Below, piece after piece: positions 762-29,512 of a stretch of 33,358 bases of DNA. Under the pieces are notes generated by a model. It was given only the letters and a program-made list of their open reading frames with translations, had not been told where the DNA came from and searched no databases. Source of the stretch: an uncultured Bacilli bacterium (lineage in GTDB: Bacteria > Bacillota_I > Bacilli_A > RF39 > UBA660). The position numbers and the translations under genes are program-made. Position 1 is the stretch's first letter. Each line of letters opens with the position of its first letter. The DNA lies in contig CALVYE010000005.1 of NCBI GenBank assembly GCA_944372025.1, positions 1-33,358 on the forward strand, written 5' to 3'.

Positions 762-794
762 AAAAAAATATTGAAAAAATTCTCAATATTTTTT
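762..794 (-). terminator. Rho-independent terminator of the pyrophosphatase gene
   Basis: Arms at 763-774 and 783-794 pair over 12 bp with an 8-nt loop, and a run of U follows on the minus strand. The upstream arm overlaps the stop codon at 793-795. The stem is nearly all A-T. Confidence 0.8.
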
Positions 795-2409
795 ATAATT
801 CGTCCATTATATATGGAATGACTTGTTTTTTCCTAGATACTACTCCATCAATATAGTAACCTTGATATAAATCACTAATATTTAGACAATTTTCTAATAA
901 TTCTTTACTGTTTTCATTATATAAAACATATGAACCTTTTTTTACAATATCAGTAATATAAAGATTTATCATATAATAATTATTATTTTTAACAGTATCT
1001 TCTATTAATTTTACATAGTCATCTATATCTTTTTTAATTTCATCAAAATTCATAGTAAATATTTGACCTATACCTATTTTTTTATTGTTAACATTAAATT
1101 CTTTAAAATCATTATATAAAATTTCTTCCTTAGTTTTTCCAACAATAGATGTACCCGCTTTTAACATTTCCATACCATATTCATTCATATTGATTTTTGC
1201 AAGTTTTTCTAATGCTTTAGCGGCCTCTTTATCTAGTGGTGTTGTAGTTGGAGAACTAAAAAGTAAAGTATCAGATATTATTCCAGATAACATTATACCT
1301 GCAATTTCTTTTGGAATTTCAACTTTATTTTCTTTGTACAAGTTATATATTATCGTATTAGTACTTCCTACAGCCATATTTCTAAAATTGATAGGGTTTG
1401 TAGTATTAACATTACCAATTTTGTGATGATCAATTATTTCTAGAATTTCCGCTTCTTCTAGTCCATCTACACTTTGTTCTCCTTCGTTGTGATCAACTAA
1501 AATTACTTTTTTCTTTCTCTTATCTGAAATATCATTTATTTTTAATAAACCATAACATTTATTATTTCTATTAACAATTGGATAATTAGTATATTTTAAT
1601 CTATTAGAGATATCCACAAAACTGTTGATAAAGTCATTTTCATCAAATGTTGTTAATTCTTCATCTTTATTTATAATTGTAGAGATATAATTTGATAATT
1701 CTATTAATTTTGCTACATTGAAAGTATTTAAATCAGTTTTAATGATATTAACCTTATTTTCTTTTGCTCGTTTCAAATGTTCATCTTTCATTTGATTTCC
1801 ACCAGTTATTATAAGCATTTTTACTTTACTTTCAATTGCGTACTCAATAATACTATGTCTATCTCCTACTATAAGAATTGTATTAGGTCCAATTTTAACG
1901 TTTTCAATAAAAGAGGTACTTCTATATGAAGCAACGAGTATTTCGCCTTTTATTTCATCGTTAAATCTCAAAATTTCTTGTCCTTCAATTGTATTTAAAA
2001 TATTATTATATGAAGTATTTAAATCCCTTATTATACTATCTATTAACTCTCTAAATATTCCTTTTAGAGTAGCCATTCCAACTAAATTGTTATTTTCATT
2101 AATAATTGGAAGTCCTGTTAATTCTTTACTATTCATAAAATTATAAACTTCATATATAGAAGATTTTTTACTTAAATAACAACCCCTATCATAGTTTATA
2201 TCTTTTATTTGTAGTTTTACATCATTCAAATATTTAGGTTTATCCACTTTAAAATATTTTAAAACAAACTTTGTTTCATTATTTAAATTTCCAATTATAA
2301 ATGGTTCAGTATTATATCCCAATTTATTCTTTAAATAAGATAGCGCAATTGCAGATGTAACTGAATCAGTATCAGGTTTTTTATGACCAAAAATATAAAT
2401 TTTTTCCAT
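793..2409 (-). CDS. ppaC: CBS/DRTGG-containing manganese-dependent inorganic pyrophosphatase (family II)
   Basis: This cytosolic enzyme hydrolyses pyrophosphate to phosphate. Of the 538 residues, the N-terminal DHH domain has GHKKPDTDS (8-16), and the second half has VDHNE (305-309) and the DHH motif D327-H329. The C-terminal DHHA2 domain ends with SRKKQ (525-529), the substrate-binding signature of family II enzymes. Between the DHH halves lie CBS repeats (about 75-125 and 255-300) around a DRTGG-like domain (about 150-240); in characterised relatives this insert binds adenine nucleotides and tunes activity. I chose ATG 2407-2409 over an ATG six codons upstream because TAGGAG lies 8 nt before it and inside the longer reading. 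It is a single-gene unit with its own promoter and terminator. Confidence 0.92.
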   Translation of the reverse strand: MEKIYIFGHKKPDTDSVTSAIALSYLKNKLGYNTEPFIIGNLNNETKFVLKYFKVDKPKYLNDVKLQIKDINYDRGCYLSKKSSIYEVYNFMNSKELTGLPIINENNNLVGMATLKGIFRELIDSIIRDLNTSYNNILNTIEGQEILRFNDEIKGEILVASYRSTSFIENVKIGPNTILIVGDRHSIIEYAIESKVKMLIITGGNQMKDEHLKRAKENKVNIIKTDLNTFNVAKLIELSNYISTIINKDEELTTFDENDFINSFVDISNRLKYTNYPIVNRNNKCYGLLKINDISDKRKKKVILVDHNEGEQSVDGLEEAEILEIIDHHKIGNVNTTNPINFRNMAVGSTNTIIYNLYKENKVEIPKEIAGIMLSGIISDTLLFSSPTTTPLDKEAAKALEKLAKINMNEYGMEMLKAGTSIVGKTKEEILYNDFKEFNVNNKKIGIGQIFTMNFDEIKKDIDDYVKLIEDTVKNNNYYMINLYITDIVKKGSYVLYNENSKELLENCLNISDLYQGYYIDGVVSRKKQVIPYIMDEL

Positions 2410-2453
2410 TTTTACAACTCCTAACATTATGTTTTTTCCAAATTGCCTTGTAT

Positions 2454-2494: not shown

Positions 2495-2857
2495 TTATTC
2501 ATACCAATTAGACATCGCTCCCATATTATACACGGTCTTATATCCTAATTTTTCTAATTTAGTCTTTGCTTCTTTACTCCTTACCCCACTATTACAATAG
2601 ACAACTATTATTTTATCTTTGCTAGGTATCTTTTTATCAGCATCTTTTTCAATATCCTCTAATGGTAATGATATCGCACCGCTTAAATGTTCTTCGTTAT
2701 ATTCTTCTTCGCTTCTAACATCTATTAAAAGAGCAGAATTATTAACTGTTTGAATTCTAGCTTCTTTTCCGTTAATTATTTCATCCTTATTTCCACATCC
2801 ACATAAAAGTATTAAGAATATTAGAATTATTGAGAAAGATAAAAATAATTTTTTCAT
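2495..2857 (-). CDS. Single-domain rhodanese lipoprotein
   Basis: The protein has 120 residues. A lipoprotein signal peptide (1-20) ends in the lipobox LCGC, with C21 the predicted lipidated residue. The rest is one rhodanese domain: LLIDVRS (43-49), EHLSGAISLP (56-65) and an active-site loop CNSGVRS starting at C88. Rhodanese domains carry sulfur as a persulfide on this cysteine. The lipid anchor places it on the outer face of the membrane, where it could handle persulfides or act on thiols of other surface proteins. It starts 16 nt after the lysozyme-fusion gene, with AAAGGA about 8 nt before its ATG, so the two are probably co-transcribed. The substrate is unknown. Confidence 0.87.
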   Translation of the reverse strand: MKKLFLSFSIILIFLILLCGCGNKDEIINGKEARIQTVNNSALLIDVRSEEEYNEEHLSGAISLPLEDIEKDADKKIPSKDKIIVVYCNSGVRSKEAKTKLEKLGYKTVYNMGAMSNWYE

Positions 2858-2873
2858 ACTATCATTCCTTTAA

Positions 2874-4025
2874 TTAGTAATATTGTAAAGTTCTTTCATA
2901 GAACCCTGTATTATAATCGCCTGTTAAATACAAGTGCCATTCACCATCACGACGTTTTGTTAATCCTTCTCTAAATTTAGGAGGATTAACAATAGAACTC
3001 ATATATGCCCATAGTGCTTCATCTCCACCACTTGCATATCTTGAAATTGCTGTATTCATAGATCCTGATCCCGCATTATAAGAAAAGCTAGTTAAAGCAT
3101 CTATTTTATTTTGAGTCCATCCTGTAATATTGTTTTTAGCAAGAGCATCTATAACCGCTTGTTGATGTGATTTTATAGTGTTTGCATATAAATCATCAAA
3201 GATGGTAACAGGAACACAGTCACCAGCAGACATTGGAAAATATTGTCCATATCCTAGTGAGATTGCTATTGCTTGTGTATAATTTGTAATTCCATATCCT
3301 GCAGTAATTGTACCATCTCCTAGATTCGCTGCCTTATAAGTAGTATGTGATGAATCACAATATCCTGTATTGCCCTCATATCCCATAATAAATTCTACTA
3401 CATTTTCATTTAATCCTGAAATTGAAGTAATCTTAGGAATTTTAGAAATTATATCTTCCCATACAATTTCTTTATATTTTGTATCTAATTTTCTATAAAT
3501 TTTCTTTAGATCTTTAACACTTGAGGAAGCTTCAGATACATTTTTCTCATTGAGAGCTTTGTTTAATCTTTCTTCTATTTCATTTACTTCATTTTGTTCT
3601 TCATCTGTTATATTACCTGACAGTTTTTCTACAACAACAGTTAATTGTTCGACTATATTTTCAGACTCAGATTTATATCGAGCTATCAATTCATTTGTTT
3701 TTGCGTTTTGAACATTTTCATATGTAGCTTCTTCCCAACATGCAGCAGCCATAAAATCACCAGATCCTAAAAGGGAAAAAGCAAATGTTATAATAAAAGG
3801 AACAAAAAATATTAAAATTGCAGGTATAACCGTTTTTACTACACTAGATGTAACTTTTCTTATGGCTTCTTCTCCTAAAGTCATTGCTTTAAAAAACTTT
3901 ATTGAGAGTTGAACTATCAAAATTACAGGAACGGCAATAGATATGATTTGCAATACAACTTTGATTAAATATATAATTTGAAGTAAAGTGTATGATTCAC
4001 AATTATTAGTAACTAACAAATACAT
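2874..4025 (-). CDS. Two-TM (VirB2/TrbC-like) membrane module fused to a GH24 lysozyme
   Basis: The protein has 383 residues. It has two hydrophobic segments (about 18-44 and 64-88) joined by a short basic loop, a charged, probably coiled-coil linker (about 105-195), and a phage-type muramidase domain (about 205-383). E217, D224 and T241 (ITAGYG) match the Glu/Asp/Thr triad of GH24, and LTSFSYNAG (311-319) and LTKRRDGEW (355-363) are family hallmarks. The basic loop puts both ends outside, so the enzyme should face the cell wall. C9 and C96 flank the membrane pair and could form a disulfide. The N-terminal module resembles the small two-TM pilin-like proteins of T4SS loci, but that relation is by eye. 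No conjugation genes adjoin it. GAGGAGG lies 7 nt before ATG 4023-4025. Confidence 0.82.
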   Translation of the reverse strand: MYLLVTNNCESYTLLQIIYLIKVVLQIISIAVPVILIVQLSIKFFKAMTLGEEAIRKVTSSVVKTVIPAILIFFVPFIITFAFSLLGSGDFMAAACWEEATYENVQNAKTNELIARYKSESENIVEQLTVVVEKLSGNITDEEQNEVNEIEERLNKALNEKNVSEASSSVKDLKKIYRKLDTKYKEIVWEDIISKIPKITSISGLNENVVEFIMGYEGNTGYCDSSHTTYKAANLGDGTITAGYGITNYTQAIAISLGYGQYFPMSAGDCVPVTIFDDLYANTIKSHQQAVIDALAKNNITGWTQNKIDALTSFSYNAGSGSMNTAISRYASGGDEALWAYMSSIVNPPKFREGLTKRRDGEWHLYLTGDYNTGFYERTLQYY

Positions 4026-4083: not shown

Positions 4084-4106
4084 AAAAACGGAAATATCCC
4101 GTTTTT
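4084..4106 (-). terminator. Terminator at the end of the ecf-truA-GNAT operon
   Basis: The 8-bp arms AAAAACGG and CCGTTTTT (4084-4091 and 4099-4106) enclose a 7-nt loop, with a U-rich tail on the minus strand. The hairpin overlaps the GNAT stop codon at 4105-4107 and lies before the lysozyme promoter. Confidence 0.8.
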
Positions 4107-4533
4107 ATAATTCTTTTTTAAAAATATCACTATCTCTTTTAAAATATCCATGATCTTTGTACATTCTTTGTGCAATTTCTCTAAAAGTAGAACAATTTAA
4201 AAATGTATATGAACAATCATTTTCTTTAGCAAACTCTTCTATGCTTTTTAAAAGTTCTTTACCATAACCTTTATGTCGATAATCGTGACGAACACATATT
4301 TCCGAAATATACATATATGGTTTTGCATTACCAAAAATGTTATATATTATATCGCCTTTTATGTGTCCTATGATTATATTTTTATCTTTAATTACTAAAC
4401 TTTTAGAATTTTTATTTTTATTATCTTTTCTAAAAGATTTTTTCATTTCATCTAAATCACATTCTATATTAAAAGCTTCTTCATATAATTCTTTTAAAGA
4501 TTCTAAATCAGAAAGTTCTAAATCTTTTACCAC
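4105..4533 (-). CDS. GNAT-family N-acetyltransferase
   Basis: The protein has 142 residues and a single GNAT fold. The acetyl-CoA binding motif A is clear (ISEICVRHDYRHKGYGKEL, with R-x-x-G-x-G), and the C-terminal beta strand follows (FREIAQRMYKDHGYFKR), as in aminoglycoside 6'-N-acetyltransferase-like and general GNAT proteins. The acceptor cannot be read from sequence. The start is GTG 4531-4533, with AAGGAG 8 nt upstream; this ribosome site overlaps the end of truA, 12 nt away. It is the last gene of the SDR-ecf-truA run and is followed directly by the terminator. Confidence 0.85.
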   Translation of the reverse strand: MVKDLELSDLESLKELYEEAFNIECDLDEMKKSFRKDNKNKNSKSLVIKDKNIIIGHIKGDIIYNIFGNAKPYMYISEICVRHDYRHKGYGKELLKSIEEFAKENDCSYTFLNCSTFREIAQRMYKDHGYFKRDSDIFKKEL

Positions 4534-8517: not shown

Positions 8518-9960
8518 CTATCTAGCAATATTTAATAAAACTGCAGAGATAATTCCTGATAAAACTCCTATTGAAAATACAACAATAAATGAACTAATAT
8601 ATCCATTTCTATCTATGTTTCCAAAGGTTAACTTTTTTTGATGAGATATTTCTTGAGTTTTAGTATTATTATAATCTTTTGTATTTTCATCTGATAAACT
8701 ATAAGTAGCTAAAATTATTTTTTGTTGTTCAGGATTAGCTTTTATAAATTGTTCATAAACACCATATTCTATTAACTTATCTTTAATATTTGGGTCAATG
8801 TTCATATTGTATCTCCTTTCAATTTCGCCATTATTTCCTAATTTTGTTATTTGCCCGTCTTCTAAAGTATAGGGATTACCCTTTTCATCAATTAAAAATC
8901 CTGTTTTAGTATCTATTTTTAATTTATTAGTTTGTGGAACTACTTTTTTATCTATATCTTCAAAATCATCATTTGTTATCATTTCTTTTTTTACTTCATC
9001 TACAAGTTCAGGTGCTTTAAGAGATACATCCCTATTTCGATCTCTAATTTTATCTAATCTTTCTTTTGGAGTTATATTCCCAATAATTTCTGCAAATACT
9101 GGTTCATCCTCATCTTCTAATTTTATATATTGTGTTTTACCTTTATTTACATGATTTACTTCTTCTGTTTTCATTTTTTCTAAGGCTTTTTCATTTTCTT
9201 TATCTACGCTCATTATTTCTTCATTAGGTAATTTTATATCTAAATTAATAATCAACATATTTCTTTCATCTTCAGTTAACCCAAGCTTTTTGATATCTTC
9301 TTCAGACATATTTTTAAAAATATGATTTACACAATTAATCATATAAAGATTCTTATAATTTTCTCCTAATGTATCAAATATTTGTTTTAAATCTCCCTTT
9401 ATCAACAAATCGTATTTATCATTTAGTAATTTTTTACTTTCTAAAACAAATTTATATTCTTCATTAAATTCTTGTATTATTTCTATATCTAATTTCTCTC
9501 CAATATCACGTGCGATTACTTCTGTCATTCCTGATATTAGTAAATCTTTAATTATATTAGGATTAGAATTTAAAAACATTAATTTATATTGATCTTCAAC
9601 ATGTGATGTAAAGGATATATCTGATAAATTTATATGATAATTTTTATTACTTATCTTATATTGTAACTCTAAAAAGATATTTAATAATAATTTTATAAGT
9701 GTACTTTTAAGTTCTTCTATATTTAATTCTTTATGTGTTTCCATATAATAATTAATTGTTGCATCTATCAAACTTTTAATTTGATAATTATTGGGTATAT
9801 GATCTTCATTAGTTGAATCGTAGTTTGTTATTCGTGTAGAATATTTATCCATTATTATTATTGGATATGTATCAAAATAACCTGAATAATGTCTTCTTAA
9901 GAAATTAATAGTATTCCAGGAAGTTGTTAATAATTCCTGTTCTAATTCTTTTTTATCCAT
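8518..9960 (-). CDS. Unrecognised protein with C-terminal membrane anchor
   Basis: I do not recognise this family. It has 480 residues from ATG 9958-9960, chosen over an ATG 11 codons upstream because GGGGAG lies 6 nt before it. The first 240 or so residues are mixed and helical, with no catalytic motif I can name. A charged middle region (about 240-330) is rich in Glu, Lys and Asp. A short segment reading GFLIDEKGNPYTLEDGQITKLG looks like a beta-hairpin repeat. The last 26 residues form one hydrophobic helix, so the protein is probably tail-anchored with its bulk in the cytoplasm. It sits between another unknown membrane-associated protein and the SDR gene. Confidence 0.72.
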   Translation of the reverse strand: MDKKELEQELLTTSWNTINFLRRHYSGYFDTYPIIIMDKYSTRITNYDSTNEDHIPNNYQIKSLIDATINYYMETHKELNIEELKSTLIKLLLNIFLELQYKISNKNYHINLSDISFTSHVEDQYKLMFLNSNPNIIKDLLISGMTEVIARDIGEKLDIEIIQEFNEEYKFVLESKKLLNDKYDLLIKGDLKQIFDTLGENYKNLYMINCVNHIFKNMSEEDIKKLGLTEDERNMLIINLDIKLPNEEIMSVDKENEKALEKMKTEEVNHVNKGKTQYIKLEDEDEPVFAEIIGNITPKERLDKIRDRNRDVSLKAPELVDEVKKEMITNDDFEDIDKKVVPQTNKLKIDTKTGFLIDEKGNPYTLEDGQITKLGNNGEIERRYNMNIDPNIKDKLIEYGVYEQFIKANPEQQKIILATYSLSDENTKDYNNTKTQEISHQKKLTFGNIDRNGYISSFIVVFSIGVLSGIISAVLLNIAR

Positions 9961-9984
9961 GGAAATCTCCCCATTCTTATAACA

Positions 9985-9990
9985 ATTATA
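9985..9990 (-). promoter_or_regulatory. Possible -10 element upstream of the tail-anchored protein gene
   Basis: A consensus TATAAT lies on the minus strand about 25 nt before the start at 9960, in the 57-nt gap. No convincing -35 accompanies it. It may allow extra transcription of the SDR-ecf genes, but chance is likely in this AT-rich gap. Confidence 0.25.
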
Positions 9991-10017
9991 CAATAAAAAA
10001 GGATATAAATAAATATT

Positions 10018-11310
10018 TTACTTATTCATATCACGGATTAGACATAATATTTTTTGATTTTCTTTAAGATTTTTATTCATTTTTTCTTTTTCTTTTATAA
10101 ATTGATTTTGCTTATTTTTTAATTTGTCTTGATAGCTATTTATTTTTTTTAGATTTTTTTGAAATATATCAGTATTACTATATTCCCCAAATTGATTAAT
10201 ATAATCATTTTTTAAGTTTGAAATTTGATCTAAAGAGTCTTCCATCATATACTCAATTAGATCAAAACTATTTAAATTTGTTTTAATTGCACTTATGTAA
10301 TTATTACTAGGAATATATTCTACTACTTCTTCTGTAGTTATTAATTTTCTCATATTTCTAATAGAATTACTTATAATAAATAATCCAGTAGCAAAAAGTG
10401 GTATATTTTTAGGTTTTTTTAACAAAGGTATACTCATTATTGAAAACATGACATTTTTAAAATTTGAAAATAAATTACTTAAAAAATGAAATTTTACATA
10501 TTTTAATTCTTTAGGTTTAATACCCTTTATTTTTTTATTAAATTCTGCATATATTTTTTGTTGCTCTTTTAATTTTTCATCTAAAAGATTATGTATATTT
10601 TCTATATGAATTAGATTAACATTAGATAAAACTGTTTTATTTTTCCTATTATTTTGGTAATTATATATATTTAAGACTGTCTTCTTTTTTGTTTTTTTAC
10701 TCTTTATAATTTTTTGATTTGATGCATTACTAATTTTAGGAGTTTTAATTGGTTCTACAAAATATACATTTTTAGGTTCTGGTATTCCTTTTTTTAAGTT
10801 AGTAGATACTTTTTCACGCTTATTATTTTCTAAAACTTCTTTTACTTTTTTTGTATTAAGATTTACTGTTATAGATTTTGAAGATTTTATATTTTTAGTA
10901 TTTAATTCATGAGTATTTTTATAAGTATTATGAATACTATCAATATTTTTATTTTGATAACTTTTAGACTTGGAAGCAATTTTGATTTGTGGTTGTTTTT
11001 TTTGTTTTTCATATTTGAATGTTGACAAAATCATTGTTGTAGGGACTAAAGCTACTTTTAATGTGGTTGCTACATAGTGTTTTTTGAATTTATGGTCTGT
11101 GCTTATTATCATACCTTTTGAATTTCTTTTTATAAATCTATCATGATTTAAGATTATTTCATTGTCTTTTTTCTTTTTTTCAATATACTTTTTCTTTTTT
11201 AAATTTTCTTCTTCTAATAATTTTTTTCTTCTTTTAATAAAGAACAATTTAAATTTTCTAAATCTTATTTTTAATCTATCTAAGAAGCTACCCTTAGAAC
11301 CACTTCTCAC
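10018..11310 (-). CDS. Unrecognised highly basic membrane-associated protein
   Basis: I do not recognise this family. It has 430 residues and is very rich in Lys and Asn. It begins with a strongly basic stretch (1-50) containing many Lys/Arg. A moderately hydrophobic segment lies at 79-98, and a second at about 303-318 follows a hydrophobic, Phe-rich region (275-297). Between them (100-235) is a low-complexity Lys/Asn/Ser/Thr region, probably disordered. The C-terminus (about 355-430) has the heptad-like pattern of a coiled coil. The start is GTG 11308-11310, preceded by AGAAGGTGA. It is the first gene after the rplQ terminator and has its own consensus-like promoter, so it heads the transcript that continues through the ECF genes. 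Confidence 0.68.
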   Translation of the reverse strand: MRSGSKGSFLDRLKIRFRKFKLFFIKRRKKLLEEENLKKKKYIEKKKKDNEIILNHDRFIKRNSKGMIISTDHKFKKHYVATTLKVALVPTTMILSTFKYEKQKKQPQIKIASKSKSYQNKNIDSIHNTYKNTHELNTKNIKSSKSITVNLNTKKVKEVLENNKREKVSTNLKKGIPEPKNVYFVEPIKTPKISNASNQKIIKSKKTKKKTVLNIYNYQNNRKNKTVLSNVNLIHIENIHNLLDEKLKEQQKIYAEFNKKIKGIKPKELKYVKFHFLSNLFSNFKNVMFSIMSIPLLKKPKNIPLFATGLFIISNSIRNMRKLITTEEVVEYIPSNNYISAIKTNLNSFDLIEYMMEDSLDQISNLKNDYINQFGEYSNTDIFQKNLKKINSYQDKLKNKQNQFIKEKEKMNKNLKENQKILCLIRDMNK

Positions 11311-28711: not shown

Positions 28712-28747
28712 AAAAAATAAAGGCATAATTGTCATCTGCCTTTATTT
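28712..28747 (-). terminator. Terminator after spo0A
   Basis: The 11-bp arms at 28715-28725 and 28737-28747 (AAATAAAGGCA/TGCCTTTATTT) enclose an 11-nt loop, with a U run following on the minus strand. The upstream arm overlaps the spo0A stop codon. Confidence 0.87.
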
Positions 28748-29512
28748 CGCTTTAGAAGTATGAAACTCTAATCTTAACTTATCTGATATAGTTACGATAA
28801 ATTCTGAATTAGTTGGTTTTGCTTTATCGATATCTACACTATGTCCAAACACTTCTTCCATAAGTTCCCAATTCCCACGATTCCAACTTACTTCAATTGC
28901 ATGTCTTATGGCTCTTTCAACTCTTGACACTGTCGTATCAAATTTATTTGCAATCTCTGGATACAATTCTTTTGTTATTGCACCCACCATTTCAGGATTA
29001 TTATATAATAGAGAAATTCCTTCTCTTATATATTGATATCCTTTAATATGAGATGGTATACCAAGTTCATGAAGAATTTTTGTTATACAAATTTGTAAGT
29101 CATTATGTAATAAATCTATAATTTTACCATTTTCTTTTTTATTACAAATTTCTAAAACTCTTCTTTCTAAATCAGAAAGTTCAAAAGGTTTTAATATAAA
29201 ATAACTTACTCCATATCCCGACACTCTTCTAATAGTATCTTCTTCATTAAATGATGTAGAGACTATTACTTTTTTATCAATTCCTCTTTTTTGCATTTCT
29301 TCTAAAACGTATAATCCATCTTTCTTTGGCATAATTAGATCCAAAATAATAACATCATACTCGTCTTTCCTATTTTGAATCATATCTATTCCTTCTTCGC
29401 CATTATAGGCGGTTAATGCTACTTCTATATTTGCGTGACTACTAAAATACTCTTTAACCATACTGCATAAACTTTCGTTGTCGTCGATCATAAGAATTTT
29501 TATATTTTCCAT
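28742..29512 (-). CDS. spo0A: Sporulation master regulator Spo0A
   Basis: Spo0A is the phosphorelay response regulator that commits endospore-formers to sporulation. It has 256 residues. In the receiver domain (1-120), D10/D11 form the acidic pocket, D58 in ILDLIMP is the phosphorylation site, and S85/T86 and K108 are the switch residues. The C-terminal domain (about 140-256) is the Spo0A-specific DNA-binding fold, including [20 protein letters not shown] and [20 protein letters not shown] precedes the ATG. It is a single-gene unit between tpiA and the ATPase. An intact Spo0A suggests sporulation ability, but no other sporulation gene is in this window. Confidence 0.96.

Follow-up and report, generated by a model that had tools for sequence, protein, structure and literature searches.

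Introduction

VirB2 pilins are reported as absent from Gram-positive T4SSs except in Patescibacteria (2025 review, PMC12857230; also PMC12102498), where VirB2-like pilins (PF18895) occur in arrays (PMC12102498). The VirB1-like hydrolases of Gram-positive systems, such as TraG of pIP501 and PrgK of pCF10, are membrane-tethered and outward-facing, with a variable domain make-up, and carry no pilin hairpin (PMC12857230). The closest precedent for a GH24 protein that is not of phage origin and crosses the membrane twice is SpmX of Caulobacter and Asticcacaulis (muramidase domain in PDB 6h9d; PMC4460556), which combines a GH24 domain, a spacer, and a two-pass transmembrane (TM) region. The same enzyme fold is found in the phage endolysins (PHROG_7, 7m5i, T4-type lysozymes), which lack a pilin hairpin. 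In the X-T4SS pair XAC2609/XAC2610 a T4SS-related lysozyme adjoins a lipoprotein gene; XAC2609 is a cytoplasmic soluble effector delivered by the T4SS of a diderm host and has no TM hairpin (PMC10933484).

The gene described here was found in an assembly of an uncultured gut Bacilli bacterium (the window, i.e. the whole analysed stretch of DNA, is 33,358 nucleotides long), and encodes a VirB2-like hairpin joined to a GH24 lysozyme. With the VirB2-like pilins the module shares two TM helices, a basic inner loop, both ends outside, and several divergent copies per genome, which in relatives lie beside VirB6, VirB3, VirB4, and VirD4. It differs from them by the C-terminal enzyme, a cysteine pair, a Cys-x-x-x-Ala-Thr motif, and a location away from any T4SS locus, and the host is a member of a family of Bacilli rather than of Patescibacteria. 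In respect to SpmX the order of parts is reversed (there GH24 is N-terminal and the TM region C-terminal), and the TM region of SpmX, an alphaproteobacterial protein of stalk development, is not shown to be pilin-like. Compared with the phage endolysins, the GH24 domain retains the fold, has candidates for the catalytic residues, and adds a 12-residue insert by the active site. A search of the open literature returned no description of an RF39 T4SS or of pilin-hydrolase fusions, and the set of fusions reported here, within one bacterial family, is apparently undescribed.

Architecture of the fusion protein

The open reading frame, read from those of the window, spans exactly positions 2874-4025 of the minus strand (383 residues), and its ATG start lies just 3' of a strong GAGGAGGT ribosome site. 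The initial annotation, which named no strand, had listed a two-TM hairpin with a basic loop, flanking cysteines, a charged linker, and a GH24 domain, and all of these were recovered:

2874..4025, minus strand: whole gene, VirB2-like pilin hairpin and GH24 lysozyme, 383 residues (Pfam, PHROG, AlphaFold model)
3987..4025, minus strand: outside N-terminal tail, residues 1-13, almost free of K/R, including Cys9 (3999-4001)
3891..3986, minus strand: first TM helix, residues 14-45, with conserved Pro33 (model and alignment)
3828..3890, minus strand: basic cytoplasmic loop, residues 46-66, with conserved Lys46 (alignment of 82 fusions)
3762..3827, minus strand: second TM helix, residues 67-88, with conserved Phe73 and Pro76 (model and alignment)
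3705..3740, minus strand: juxtamembrane motif Cys96-W-x-x-A-T-x-E, residues 96-107, common within the hydrolase-fusion clade but seldom seen outside it
3426..3731, minus strand: helical charged linker, residues 99-200 (model, pLDDT mostly >85)
2889..3407, minus strand: GH24 lysozyme domain, residues 207-379 (Pfam, PHROG, Foldseek, alignment)
3375-3377, 3354-3356, and 3303-3305, minus strand: candidate catalytic E217, D224, and T241, respectively (alignment)

The C-terminal domain belongs to GH24, both by its score and by its lysozyme fold. Pfam Phage_lysozyme matches residues 238-361 (E 1.3e-7; 32.4 bits, above the cut-off of 22.3) and the PHROG_7 endolysin profile matches the protein with E 1.4e-15. 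The AlphaFold model, calculated with 32 sequences, consists of a helical hairpin (10-50/52-85), three linker helices (102-195), and the lysozyme domain, with a mean pLDDT of 75 and values <50 for residues 233-265; prediction from two sequences alone was poor (pLDDT 60). The best Foldseek match of the model is the endolysin 7m5i (E 7.6e-4), and GH24 endolysins and the SpmX muramidase are among its matches. The membrane-tethered muramidase that had been proposed is supported. GH24 enzymes had been taken for normally soluble phage endolysins, a generalization to which SpmX already is an exception (PMC4460556).

The putative catalytic residues E217 and T241 align cleanly with GH24. D224 is placed only by a Y-x-D motif, which we take to correspond to Y18-K19-D20 of T4 lysozyme; because the loop between D224 and T241 contains the insert and is modeled with low confidence (pLDDT <50), D224 is only the presumed Asp of the triad. 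All three residues are kept in the only orthologue, which belongs to a congener (G002).

The N-terminal module

The Pfam model PF18895 (T4SS_pilin) aligns over nearly its full length with residues 16-81, at a sub-threshold level (E 0.0054; 17.2 bits, below the curated cut-off of 26.6). The match is stronger in other copies: seven of the eight module copies in the source genome are recognized (best 1.1e-7), 19 of 82 aligned fusions have E<1e-3 (best 2.9e-8), and one fusion (L037) passes the cut-off with 29.2 bits. A search of the modules against NCBIfam gave nothing useful. The VirB2-type character suggested initially is therefore faint in the window copy and clearer in its paralogs, and the alternative of an ordinary holin was checked as well, the matches being to the T4SS pilin. 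Judged by these profile matches, the N-terminal module is homologous to the VirB2-like T4SS pilins.

The topology predicted from the model and the charges is also VirB2-like, with two TM helices, a basic cytoplasmic loop, and both ends outside. Over the 82 homologous N-termini the K+R counts are 0.17 for the outer tail, 5.2 for the loop, and 2.1 after the second TM helix (vs 3.3 acidic residues). This charge distribution places both module ends outside, in line with the outward orientation claimed before. The pilin-type anchor and its orientation are both well supported. Among the same 82 fusions Cys9 is conserved in 77, Cys96 in 80, Pro33 in 81, Pro76 in 79, and Lys/Arg at position 46 in 78. 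Both cysteines are present together in 77 sequences, and in three of the remaining five the N-terminus is truncated. The sister proteins L040 and L055 lack both, the joint loss being confined to one subclade, as expected for a disulfide pair; the residues probably form a Cys9-Cys96 disulfide.

Genomic neighbourhood

The genes around the fusion are:

2495..2857, minus strand: rhodanese-domain protein with a lipoprotein-like signal, directly downstream (Pfam); same place in G002
793..2427, minus strand: CBS/DHH-type pyrophosphatase-like gene (function recognized from the sequence); same place in G002
4105..4533, minus strand: acetyltransferase-like upstream neighbour (identity recognized from the sequence); same place in G002

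G002 thus has the four genes in identical order (acetyltransferase, fusion, rhodanese, pyrophosphatase), and the two fusion proteins are 42% identical. No fusion was found at the same genomic place in other genera, where the neighbours differ; in the genus-mate G001 the contig ends before the site. The gene is chromosomal, as had been stated, among housekeeping genes and out of the company of VirB4, VirB6, and VirD4, whereas stand-alone modules in relatives do have this company. An assembly error was rejected, since the whole protein recurs at this place in a second species and 80 others share the design.

As phages commonly carry GH24 domains, and phage endolysins are the GH24 sequences that come nearest in the databases, the gene could be read as a holin-endolysin fusion or as the leftover of a prophage lysis cassette. 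We give this reading practically no credence. The full fusion was not found in the viral contigs, phages, or plasmids searched, the phage matches being limited to residues 205-370 with identity <31%, and neither a phage neighbourhood nor a phage homologue of the whole protein was found. The housekeeping gene order persists in the second species, where a decayed prophage had been considered and the locus is not one, and the N-terminus comes from a pilin family present in 131 of 145 genomes of the bacterial family. On these searches and the conserved gene order, a prophage or holin-endolysin origin was rejected.

Distribution of the module and of its fusions

The eight module copies of the source genome comprise six stand-alone proteins (~140-175 residues), the GH24 fusion, and an NlpC/P60 fusion. 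This recurrence, the presence of the module in 131 of 145 family genomes, and the 77 of 82 fusions with both cysteines make the arrangement more than a coincidence. Among 296 genomes drawn class-wide, 36 members of the family matched and outside it only one genome did, marginally; a phylum-wide draw showed the same confinement.

In the initial survey of 96 modules, 46 were stand-alone, 28 lay at the C-terminus of exported proteins, and 22 were N-terminal fusions, so that VirB2-like proteins, previously described as small and stand-alone, are here often fused, at either end. In the tree of these 96 sequences all 19 of the N-terminal fusions that bear an enzyme cluster together, to the exclusion of every other module (bootstrap 88, SH-aLRT 92), and are accounted for by a single label change; the grouping is good but not decisive, since the alignment is short. 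The 82 aligned fusions are these 19 and 63 newly read sequences retrieved with a profile of the 19-member group, and because they were found with the group's own profile the added members extend the group and are no independent test of its unity.

The 82 fusions carry the Pfam domains Peptidase_C39_2 (11), NLPC_P60 (10), Big_2 (9), M23 (6), CHAP (6), GDSL_2 (5), VanY (4), Amidase_3 (4), Glucosaminidase (3), M15_4 (2), Phage_lysozyme (2), YkuD (2), and single others, where one protein may match more than one domain. L,D-transpeptidase is among the swapped C-termini, and a GH24 C-terminus is restricted to the window gene and its G002 counterpart. The survey for recurrence that had been suggested thus yields 82 fusions with the same N-terminal module in the family. 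The fusion is a recurrent architecture, not a one-off, with one N-terminal module and swapped wall enzymes: the pilin hairpin now serves to anchor some ten kinds of them.

The module is also found toward the C-terminus of exported proteins, some of them VWA-like and several within the T4SS locus (L050:9817-11529, L051:1754-3031, L047:9519-12008, L096:2730-4535). Stand-alone pilin-like genes of the source genus adjoin small Big_2-type TM proteins away from any T4SS (L070:3259-5380, L069:6744-8503, L055:2738-3196), as well as exported proteins with Cu_amine_oxidN1 or Amidase_3 domains. One genome (G073) has 16 module copies, and four long module-bearing open frames lie close together on its contig 1 (e.g. 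G073:C1:78031-82833, L108).

The T4SS locus of the family

In sister genera, module copies stand in tandem directly upstream of genes for a VirB6-like protein, a PrgI-like protein, VirB4, a VirB1-like hydrolase, a lipoprotein, and VirD4. The pilin array is preceded by Tad-like genes, namely CpaB, a CpaF/VirB11-type ATPase, and TadB/TadC-like genes (the last by position and look of the sequence). By profile, VirB4 (Mbov_0397-type model) is assigned with 5e-106, VirD4 (CD1115-type) with 3e-87, and VirB6 with 2e-9, and the ATPase is assigned to VirB11/TadA; PrgI (E 2e-4) and RcpC/CpaB (2e-5) are both below the cut-off. The loci and the VirB1-like genes are:

L059:4690-20000, L047:1645-18573, L053, L054, and L049:7857-19933: T4SS loci with VirB2-like pilin arrays joined to Tad-like genes
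L059:15660-18011, L049:10765-12540, L060:951-2762, and L047:16765-18573: VirB1-like genes

The VirB1-like gene after VirB4 differs in its wall-enzyme domain from genome to genome, with CHAP, M23, SpoIID, and NlpC/P60 each found in one of four.

VirB4 of this locus was detected in 338 of the family's 386 genomes, covering 143 of its 150 genera, with identity mostly 70-80% among the matches listed. An uncultured family of Bacilli thus has VirB2-like pilins in a near-universal chromosomal T4SS locus, outside the Patescibacteria exception, and offers a second monoderm lineage for asking whether Gram-positive cells build T4SS pili.

The locus was not found in the source assembly (93.7% complete, 98 contigs). 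Since both genus-mates G001 and G002 carry it, a missing contig is plausible, but the source genome may also have truly lost it. VirB4 was likewise not found in the assemblies G128 and G148, both of which carry fusions. The window hydrolase lies outside any T4SS locus, and the loci of relatives have their own, separate VirB1-like hydrolase. A fusion as part of the T4SS operon was rejected, as none of the fusions examined for their surroundings sits there.

The dispersal of the fusions among housekeeping genes, their grouping apart from the T4SS-locus pilins in the tree, and the T4SS missing from the source assembly would all suit a plain topology device, in which a two-pass anchor keeps housekeeping hydrolases at a set distance as cells grow or separate and is not now tied to a secretion system; SpmX is a precedent for a two-pass GH24 protein used in development (PMC4460556). 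This is possible, and we consider it the less probable explanation: the hairpin is still recognizably a pilin throughout the family, although any TM helix would serve, the module is confined to the one family having this T4SS, and a lipoprotein family of the T4SS locus accompanies many of the fusions.

Downstream partners

A same-strand gene follows within 300 bp in 70 of the 82 fusions, typically 12-20 bp away. The commonest partner is one lipoprotein-rich cluster with 24 members. A profile built from 14 downstream proteins finds, outside its seed, the T4SS-locus lipoprotein encoded between the VirB1-like hydrolase and VirD4 in three loci (E 2e-34, 1e-27, and 5e-20), and this kinship is the strongest thread leading from the dispersed hydrolases to the T4SS. 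The partner of the window gene is the rhodanese lipoprotein, not a member of the shared family. Downstream of the L037, L242, L264, and L272 fusions, the NlpC/P60 type among them, a conserved protein of ~290 residues (start MDIIVKP or similar) is encoded, which is no lipoprotein.

We regard as doubtful a polymorphic system of delivery or display, in which the pilin-derived N-terminus might give the Gram-positive T4SS of the family, through its pilus or channel, a set of exchangeable enzymes that attack wall and lipid, presented on the cell surface or passed to neighbours, with the adjacent lipoprotein keeping each in check. About as doubtful are polymorphic antibacterial effectors, in which the pilin-like N-terminus would load wall-cutting domains onto or into a T4SS or pilus against neighbours and the lipoprotein would be the immunity protein. 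The X. citri T4SS effector XAC2609 is indeed lysozyme-like and has an immunity protein with a lipoprotein box (PMC10933484). Here, too, one conserved N-terminus precedes a wide choice of swapped domains that cut wall or lipid, a genome having several such proteins, and the fusion gene is closely paired with one for a lipoprotein or another exported protein, but two TM helices with both ends outside would make release or transfer hard, and L,D-transpeptidases and VanY are wall-remodelling, not killing enzymes. Immunity proteins usually match one toxin, whereas this lipoprotein family is common to different enzyme types.

Proposed role

The window protein is genuine and not of phage origin, a putative wall hydrolase that faces outward and belongs to a large modular set. 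That it is a chromosomal hydrolase on a VirB2-type pilin hairpin opening the cell's own wall, likely for a T4SS, has in our estimate about an even chance. As the anchor is related to the family-wide T4SS pilins, a wall gap for the T4SS appears to be the likeliest use of the fusion. The hairpin would insert in the membrane with both ends outside, probably locked by the Cys9-Cys96 disulfide, and the helical linker would hold the GH24 domain outward at the wall, where the cell's own peptidoglycan may be its target, cut at the glycan strands. With this anchor the enzyme could be brought to where the T4SS, or another pilin-like assembly, needs a wall gap, as VirB1 does elsewhere, and the adjacent lipoprotein would probably restrain or position it. 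The substrate is very likely present, because a wall is predicted for most RF39 species (PMC10868615) and the source genome encodes a penicillin-binding transpeptidase. With this proposal, the question of how a secretion machine might breach the wall in its way becomes concrete and testable.

Of the functions named in the initial annotation, the link to a secretion channel stands in part: relatives have a T4SS with the same pilin family, and many fusions have a lipoprotein partner in common with this system, but the gene is outside that locus and the T4SS is absent from the assembly. For division or spore-mother-cell remodelling we found no evidence, although Spo0A is encoded in the window (28742-29512; Spo0A_C 4.5e-41) and the lineage keeps this sporulation master regulator. 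Elsewhere in the window, beside the ribosomal protein operon, positions 8518-9993 and 10018-11310 encode two long proteins, adjacent to each other, that contain hydrophobic segments and match nothing in Pfam.
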